A DNA stretch of 64,000 nt from assembly GCF_001708935.1 (NCBI RefSeq), contig NZ_MASI01000001.1, forward strand, positions 806,001 to 870,000. Direction: 5' to 3'. A program made the translations under genes and the position numbers. Source of the stretch: Methyloligella halotolerans (GTDB taxonomy: Bacteria; Pseudomonadota; Alphaproteobacteria; Rhizobiales; Methyloligellaceae). Every line of letters begins with the position of its first letter. Within the stretch, counting starts at the first letter, position 1. Below are positions 47,143 to 61,977 of the stretch, piece after piece. Below the pieces are notes generated by a model. The model was not told the DNA's origin and ran no database searches. It saw only the letters and a list, made by a program, of their open reading frames with translations.

Positions 47143-47148
47143 TTATCA

Positions 47149-47556
<408 letters not shown>

Positions 47557-59798: not shown

Positions 59799-60703
59799 AT
59801 GAAAATCGCTCTCATGGCGCGAAACGCCAACCTCTACAGCCATCAGCGGATCGTGGAGGCTGCGGAGGCGCGCGGTCACGAGATCGAGGTCATCAACACG
59901 CTGCGGGTGTCGATCAATATCAGCTCGGGCCGGCCCATGCTGTATCACCGGCTGCAGCATCCGCTGGAAGAGTTCGACGCGGTCATTCCGCGTATCGGTG
60001 CCTCGGTGACGGCATACGGTCTCGCGGTGCTGCGGCAGTTCGAGGTGATGGGCATCTATCCCATGAACGAATCCGTCGCGATCGGCCGCTCGCGGGACAA
60101 GCTGCGCTGCATGCAGCTGCTTGCCCGAAGGGGCATCGGCCTGCCGAGCACGGCCTACACCAACGATCCGAAACAGGCCGAAGACGTCATCAAGCTGGTC
60201 GGCGGTCCCCCGGTGGTGATCAAGCTGATCGAGGGCACCCAAGGCATCGGCGTGGTGCTCGGCGAGACGATGCAATCGGCGAAGTCGGTGATCGAGGCGT
60301 TCCAGGGTGCCAAGGTCAATATCCTGGTCCAGGAATACGTGAAGGCCGGAGGCATGGATATCCGCGCCTGGTGATCGGCGACAAGGTGGTGGCCGCCATG
60401 AAGCGTCAGGGCCCGCCCGGCGAGTTCCGCTCCAATCTGCATCGGGGCGGACAGGCCTCCGCCGTGAAGATCACGCCGCAAGAACGGGCGACCGCCGTGA
60501 AGGCGGCGAAGACCCTGGGGCTGAACGTTTGCGGCGTGGACATGCTGCGTTCGGAGCAAGGTCCGGTGGTCATGGAGCTCAACTCCTCCCCTGGCATCGA
60601 GGGGCTGGAGCGCGCCAGCGGCAAGGATGTGGCCTCGCTGATGATCGAGTTCCTGGAGCGGAACGCGAAGCCTCACAAGACGCGGACAAAGGGCAAAGGC
60701 TAG
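59799..60703 (+). CDS. rimK: RimK family alpha-L-glutamate ligase, frameshifted
   Basis: An ATP-grasp ligase of the RimK family; E. coli RimK adds glutamates to the C-terminus of ribosomal protein S6. Across the shift the gene encodes about 301 residues, the family length. The first part has [40 protein letters not shown] and [20 protein letters not shown], then hits TGA at 60372-60374 after MDIRAW. The next frame resumes [26 protein letters not shown] and the metal-binding end [15 protein letters not shown]. One C is missing in GCGCCTGG at 60366-60369. It follows the RimB-type gene by 40 bp. Confidence 0.88.
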
Positions 60704-60923: not shown

Positions 60924-60953
60924 TTGGCGAATACGTCTACCTCTACGTAAACT
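60924..60953 (+). promoter_or_regulatory. putative promoter and operator of the 27-aa peptide gene
   Basis: TTGGCG (60924-60929), an 18-bp spacer and TAAACT (60948-60953). The spacer holds the inverted repeat TACGT-N8-ACGTA (60932-60949), a natural place for a repressor. A hairpin CGTCT-cataa-AGACG (60961-60975) would lie at the very 5' end of the transcript. Confidence 0.5.
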
Positions 60954-60998
60954 GGTGGTTCGTCTCATAAAGACGTCCAACGGAAAAGGAGGCTTCCG

Positions 60999-61082
60999 AT
61001 GGAACTGACACAAGCCCTTTCGGCGATAACGGCCTTGACCTCGTTCGGCTTTCTCGCCGCCGTTATCATCGGTATCGTATAG
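60999..61082 (+). CDS. 27-residue hydrophobic peptide, putative small membrane protein
   Basis: ATG 60999 to TAG 61080-61082 encodes 27 residues beginning MELTQALSAITALTSFG and ending with an uncharged hydrophobic stretch that closes AVIIGIV. One acidic residue lies at position 2 and there are no basic residues. Residues 7-27 could span the membrane once. An AAAAGGAGG ribosome site sits 7-8 bases before the ATG, the strongest in the window. A promoter-like pair lies upstream and an intrinsic terminator 60 bp downstream, so it forms a one-gene unit. I do not recognise it; KdpF-, CydX- and YnhF-like peptides have the same size but different sequences. Confidence 0.6.
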   Translation: MELTQALSAITALTSFGFLAAVIIGIV

Positions 61083-61144
61083 CGTTTGGGGACGCTCAGG
61101 CCGGGGCGCCGAACCAAGGCCCCCGATGCCGGATCCGTAGGTCT

Positions 61145-61173
61145 CTCGCAAGTTTGCGAGGGGCCCTTTTTTT
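61145..61173 (+). terminator. rho-independent terminator after the 27-aa peptide gene
   Basis: CTCGCAA-GT-TTGCGAG (61145-61160), with outer GG/CC pairing, is followed by TTTTTTT at 61167-61173. Confidence 0.85.
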
Positions 61174-61365
61174 GCCCGACGCCTGCCGGCTTACACATCG
61201 CCTCACTGAGCTCGCCTTTTCACCCCGTCTTGCCGACACCCGTATCCGGGTGAGACCATCCCGAGCCGGACTCGATAAGGGTCCGCTGGCGCAGCGCTTA
61301 CGCCTGTGCGAACAAGGCGGCCCTCAATTGAACCGAGAGCGTGGCTTGTGAATCGGGAGCGCGGC

Positions 61366-61977
61366 GTGGCGCAGTGTTTGATGCTCGATGTCGATGGGGT
61401 GGCCGTCACCGGGCACCCTGAAGACGGACGATCTTGGGCAGCGGATATCGAGCAGGACCTCGGGATCGATCCGCATCGCCTACAGGACGTTTTCTTCGCT
61501 CCGTGTTGGGGCGATATCGTGCTGGGGCGGAAGAATCTCATGGATGCGCTTCGGGCGTGCCTGCCGACCCTTTCCGCCTCCGTCACCCCGGAAGAATTTC
61601 TCGAATACTGGTTCTCGCGAGATGCGCGGCTGAACGAAGCTGTGATTGGTGCATGCGATGTTCTCCGCCGCCGTGGCTGGCGCATCTTCTTCGCCACCAA
61701 CCAGGAGCATCTCCGCGCGCGCTATCTCATGGAGCGCTTGGGACTTGGACGGCATGTCGACGGAATGATCTATTCGGCGCGCATCGGCGCGAAGAAGCCC
61801 GAGGGCGCCTTCTTCAAGGCCGCGGCCAGGATCAGCGGTGCCGCGCCAGAGAAGCTGATACTCGTGGACGACTCGGAGTCCAATGTCGCTGCCGCCCGTC
61901 AGGCGGGCTGGGCTGCCCATCATTGGACGGACGGCGACGACCTGTTGATGCTTCTGCAGGACCGGAAGACCGGCTGA
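61366..61977 (+). CDS. HAD-superfamily hydrolase
   Basis: A 203-residue haloacid dehalogenase-like phosphohydrolase. The catalytic motif I is LMLDVDGVAV (Asp8 nucleophile, Asp10 acid/base), motif II is FFATNQEH, motif III is the lysine in IGAKKPEGAFF, and motif IV is LILVDDSESNVAAA. A helical cap lies between motifs I and II. The best start is GTG 61366, preceded by GGGAG at good spacing; GTG 61348 and 61306 are in frame upstream. The substrate cannot be told; pattern and size resemble sugar-phosphate and nucleotide phosphatases of the HAD-IA group. It converges on metH with a 3-bp gap. Confidence 0.83.
   Translation: MAQCLMLDVDGVAVTGHPEDGRSWAADIEQDLGIDPHRLQDVFFAPCWGDIVLGRKNLMDALRACLPTLSASVTPEEFLEYWFSRDARLNEAVIGACDVLRRRGWRIFFATNQEHLRARYLMERLGLGRHVDGMIYSARIGAKKPEGAFFKAAARISGAAPEKLILVDDSESNVAAARQAGWAAHHWTDGDDLLMLLQDRKTG

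Follow-up and report, generated by a model that had tools for sequence, protein, structure and literature searches.

A conserved 27-codon frame in Methyloligella halotolerans specifies a tiny, probably single-helix membrane protein of the Hyphomicrobiales

The locus studied here occupies some 250 nucleotides near the end of a 64,000-nucleotide stretch of Methyloligella halotolerans DNA (hereafter the window), and the question it raises is whether it holds a gene for a very small protein, or a small RNA in which a short reading frame occurs by accident. A reading of the sequence alone had proposed that a self-contained gene, which would code for a tiny single-helix membrane protein, had been overlooked here, and had pointed to promoter-like boxes, a Shine-Dalgarno site, a 27-codon frame and an intrinsic terminator. 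All of these are present at the positions assigned to them (Table 1). Transcription would be expected to start near position 60960, giving a transcript of ∼210 nt. A simple consensus scan returned no promoter at 60924–60953; in the window's family, 17 of 25 genomes have boxes of the same type, whose spacing from the start codon is nearly constant. A terminator of like make lies at the same place in a genome of the same genus (G001), and a Shine-Dalgarno-like site is found at all 151 of the 151 related loci.

Table 1. Features of the small gene and its signals, in window coordinates.
Feature	Position	Strand	Details
Sigma70-like promoter	60924–60953	+	TTGGCG 60924–60929, 18-nt spacer, TAAACT 60948–60953; read from sequence
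Short 5' hairpin	60961–60975	+	CGTCT-CATAA-AGACG; sequence not conserved
Mini-hairpin	60981–60998	+	CGGAA-AAGGAGGC-TTCCG; Shine-Dalgarno site in loop, ATG immediately 3'
Shine-Dalgarno site	60984–60992	+	AAAAGGAGG; 6 nt ahead of ATG
27-codon gene plus stop, predicted single-pass membrane protein	60999–61082	+	Product MELTQALSAITALTSFGFLAAVIIGIV; ATG at 60999, TAG ending at 61082; conserved frame, selection, distribution
Intrinsic terminator	61140–61172	+	11-bp stem (61140–61165), then T7

Cases of this kind, in which a protein gene has to be told from a small RNA, can be settled by whether it is the frame, rather than the RNA, that is conserved. A search of 60 relatives recovered frames of 27 codons, with a start codon and a Shine-Dalgarno site, from almost all genomes of the family and from some others, and within the family the length of the frame is exactly constant. 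Across 25 family members, pN/pS is 0.44 in frame and rises to 1.08 and 1.91 when the frame is shifted. Many pairs are close to saturation in pS, and the ratio can be taken only as a guide, but the frames differ clearly. In the same 25 members, mismatch at codon positions 1, 2 and 3 is 0.33, 0.18 and 0.51 respectively, and identity reaches 0.67 in the coding part, compared to 0.27–0.33 outside it. The frame at 60999–61082 is under purifying selection as a protein, and it is close to certain that it is a gene and that this gene encodes a protein.

The sequence-only reading had named, as the outcome that would speak for a small RNA, hairpins kept in relatives where the frame is lost; the opposite was observed, with the frame conserved and the flanks, the promoter-spacer repeat and the first hairpin not. 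That first hairpin (CGTCT/AGACG) does exist, but is short and weak, and the fold of the RNA as a whole (226 nt) surpasses that of shuffled copies by a modest margin only (z −1.5). Better supported is the CGGAA/TTCCG hairpin that encloses the Shine-Dalgarno site, which the sequence-only reading had not mentioned: in the window's family, 22 of 25 genomes retain it, with a loop of 6–10 nt, and it was not seen in other families. In the window's family, it would adjust translation of the frame. The conserved TTCCGATGGAA (60981–61005) also allows an alternative pairing, TTCC/GGAA, whose loop would take in part of the start codon; this is a possible translational switch in the window's family. As for the inverted repeat in the promoter spacer (TACGT-N8-ACGTA), it is indeed present, but shuffling these 30 nt gives a 5-bp repeat of such a kind in ∼10% of copies, and this one is not kept in relatives. 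It is probably a chance occurrence; its interpretation as an operator was dropped, and the argument for a stress response that had been built on it falls with it.

The product was compared across 112 distinct peptides of 25–28 residues. Positions 2–8 are polar and often basic, with R or K found in 89 of the 112 peptides, and no charged residue occurs after position 9. Two phenylalanines, F16 and F18, are almost invariant, and positions 15, 17, 20, 21 and 25 are occupied mostly by small residues. The Rhizobium/Sinorhizobium branch departs from this pattern, with a peptide two residues shorter in which the small residue G25 is lost. The best 19-residue hydropathy of the window's peptide is 2.3, and the best 17-residue value is at least 2.2 in all 112. 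Protein-level selection and one hydrophobic stretch of sufficient length to span a membrane, the general marks of a small single-pass membrane protein, are thus both found here. From the positive-inside rule, the N-terminus should be cytoplasmic, and the arrangement of small residues and phenylalanines suggests a face that packs against another helix.

The curated libraries (Pfam, NCBIfam, PHROGs, Rfam and PDB chains) gave no match to the peptide above cut-off, and a PDB sequence search with the peptide and a literature search with peptide strings found nothing. Profile matches to MgtS, Psb35, Cadherin, PglL and SNARE are weak, below cut-off wherever one is shown, and reflect composition only. 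The peptide is of a known kind, that of the small membrane proteins, but its family was not found in any library searched.

With profiles built stepwise, matches were obtained in 232 of 397 Hyphomicrobiales genomes (E ≤ 0.01), almost always one per genome, which bears out the conservation that the sequence-only reading had proposed to look for in this order. In the family comprising the Rhizobium, Mesorhizobium and Brucella types, the peptide is found in 101 of 121 genomes (E ≤ 0.1), and named records that carry it include Roseibium, Stappia, Pseudovibrio, Afifella, Brucella/Ochrobactrum, Mesorhizobium, Nitratireductor and Bradyrhizobium. A like search outside the order returned 7 partial, chance-like matches in 381 genomes, which gives the chance level. 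The peptide is not universal: several small genomes lack it, as do some genera that keep metF, and in 15 metF-holding genomes without a profile match no convincing diverged frame was found beside metF. Since it is absent from some metF-keeping genera, it is not essential everywhere.

The surroundings of the gene are shared across genera. It faces, often convergently, the 3' end of a locus made up of an ArsR-methyltransferase gene, metF and metH: all three lie opposite to it in some Roseibium and Stappia, metF in the Rhizobium, Brucella, Mesorhizobium and Afifella types, and metH in the window's family and others. The other flank carries genes that I take, from my own reading of the sequences, to be extensin-like, LysA-like, DUF2336 or YhdH-like, and only the extensin side of the neighbourhood is found in Bradyrhizobium. 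A functional tie to metF or metH was considered and rejected, since the peptide is retained in Bradyrhizobium and others where the stretch examined has no metH or metF; the synteny, though strong, is best read as ancestral gene order, rather than as a sign of function. The peptide gene is an independent, vertically inherited, single-copy gene of the Hyphomicrobiales.

Some features of the window itself may be recorded at this point. A RimK-like ATP-grasp gene upstream is split into two frames (59799–60374 and 60371–60703) and is a single frame in G001, so that the split (59799–60703) is either a frameshift in this genome or a sequencing error. The peptide gene and metH are separated by a HAD-like hydrolase gene (61306–61977); as metH is directly next in G001, the hydrolase gene is either an insertion or lineage-specific. 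The sole Rfam match in the window is a class A RNase P RNA on the minus strand (47147–47554).

In Sinorhizobium meliloti Ak57, the ortholog is a 25-codon frame (MGLTHSLNVLMISAAFAFVAVMLFV) flanked by a DMT-transporter gene and metF, with a gap of 541 bp between these two genes, and the S. meliloti and R. leguminosarum records checked list no gene for the peptide. The 3.7 Mb Ak57 record concerned (CP090106.1) is titled plasmid pSymB; with metF and the genes that usually flank it, it looks like a mistitled chromosome. The small RNA candidate sm4, whose signal was found under salt stress, has been assigned to a gap of 541 bp that comes after SMc01844 (Valverde et al., 2008, PMC2573895), and the orientations of the genes around that gap are those of the Ak57 gap. 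The same RNA, renamed SmelC549, is 259 nt long with a 5' end confirmed by RACE (Schlueter et al., 2010, PMC2873474), and its coordinates on the 1021 chromosome are 2371597–2371855 (+). For this RNA, a 2020 review (PMC7143759) lists RpoD and RpoH1/2 promoter motifs and expression in nodules, and reports of the RNA family come essentially from the Sinorhizobium/Ensifer group (PMC3927594). A 259-nt transcript that ended with the Ak57 terminator would begin ∼23 nt upstream of the ATG, immediately 3' of a CCTATG box. On the strength of the gap length, the orientation, the neighbouring locus tag and the transcript length, the sm4/SmelC549 locus appears to hold the peptide ortholog, and the known facts on this RNA (SmelC549, sm4 or SMc06721), namely its gap, gene orientations, transcript length and start, are consistent with the 25-codon frame. 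The RNA is catalogued as a trans-encoded non-coding sRNA, whereas I read it here as the mRNA of a protein found across the order. The salt-stress transcript and the RpoD and RpoH1/2 motifs at this apparent orthologous locus provide independent, though indirect, support for a link to stress.

A second report may concern the same protein. Hadjeras et al. (2023, PMC10117765) describe SEP6 of S. meliloti as a translated protein of less than 30 amino acids with a predicted transmembrane helix, recovered in the membrane-pellet fraction and conserved in Hyphomicrobiales, and assign it no function or family. These properties match those of the peptide in length, helix and conservation, as compared by description only, and SEP6 may be the same protein, which I regard as a lead. 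A member of this peptide family may have been seen already in S. meliloti, once as an sRNA and once as a small protein, with the two left unconnected.

The S. meliloti locus is also where the strongest of the rival explanations finds its evidence, namely that the unit is a trans-acting small regulatory RNA with an incidental frame, or an RNA with two functions that acts mainly by base pairing. The cataloguing of that locus as a trans-encoded sRNA, its defined 5' end and predicted stable structure, and the long 3' part of the transcript beyond the frame are all in keeping with this. However, it is the frame that is conserved and not the RNA (pN/pS of 0.44 in frame, flank identity of 0.27–0.33), and the fold score of the window's unit is modest (z −1.5), which makes this explanation unlikely.

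That the peptide is the hydrophobic toxin in a type I toxin-antitoxin system, with an antisense or trans RNA to control it, is very unlikely. The short hydrophobic peptide, the structured 5' end and the convergent transcription of the neighbours would fit such a system, but type I hydrophobic toxins are usually multi-copy and patchy in distribution, while this gene is syntenic, present once per genome and vertically inherited across the order. The plasmid collection did not contain the peptide, except on replicons that bear the metF locus, and no PHROGs match was obtained.

Small single-helix subunits offer another point of comparison. CydH (YnhF) and CydX are small subunits of cytochrome bd oxidase, and in E. 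coli CydH is encoded away from cydAB. The peptide resembles both in being a single helix of ∼30 residues, and E. coli CydH, with 29 residues, is of similar shape; the peptide could on these grounds be an accessory subunit of this oxidase, encoded away from the oxidase genes. In a set of 34 genomes, 19 of the 20 that have the peptide also have cydA, against 5 of the 14 that lack it, but this association is not upheld in 397 genomes, where exceptions are many in both directions: several members of the window's family (G004, G006, G007, G009, G013 and G015) have the peptide without cydA, and most genomes of four other families (f6, f23, f42 and f49) have cydA without the peptide. Neither the NCBIfam CydH model nor E. 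coli CydH itself matches the peptide. With no sequence relation, and a distribution that does not follow cydA, membership of CydH/CydX was rejected; cytochrome bd oxidase is largely refuted as an obligate partner, and the explanation as a whole is highly improbable. KdpF and MgtS, which are tiny single-helix partners of ion transporters, were also rejected. For KdpF, kdpA is absent from the window's genome and present in only 7 of 20 peptide-bearing genomes tested, and the MgtS model matched 5 of 37 members, all of them with scores far short of its cut-off (best E 0.0056).

Finally, a leader peptide or attenuator for a downstream gene, for which speak the short ORF ahead of a terminator and, in the window, the HAD-like gene next on the same strand, is barely credible, as in most loci examined the next recognised downstream gene (metF or metH) is convergent, so that the peptide cannot be a leader for it, and the residues are conserved as a membrane helix rather than as a run of one regulatory codon.

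The conserved frame probably encodes a single-pass inner-membrane accessory or regulatory protein, with its own vertically inherited gene. Its 25–28 residue product, found in Hyphomicrobiales, would consist of a hydrophobic helix preceded by a short, often basic N-terminus. Through a conserved face made up of F16, F18 and the small residues at positions 15, 17, 20 and 21, this helix would pack on a larger membrane protein, and may in this way tune the activity or stability of a membrane complex, as known small membrane proteins do. By analogy with the behaviour of such proteins, it may serve a larger inner-membrane complex, either as an accessory subunit or as a regulator. More tentatively, and with somewhat less than even confidence, I propose that the peptide is a subunit or regulator of a core membrane complex across the Hyphomicrobiales, including rhizobia, Brucella, Bradyrhizobium and others, and that the S. 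meliloti locus, treated so far as a non-coding stress sRNA, may act both as an mRNA and as a regulatory RNA.

This is a gene short enough for annotation software to skip, and the family libraries searched contain no model for its product, which is retained in much of an order that counts nitrogen-fixing symbionts and Brucella among its members. If this interpretation is correct, a catalogued sRNA would be reclassified as an mRNA, a profile would be ready for use in annotation, and the peptide would offer a small, testable handle on a membrane complex of these bacteria.
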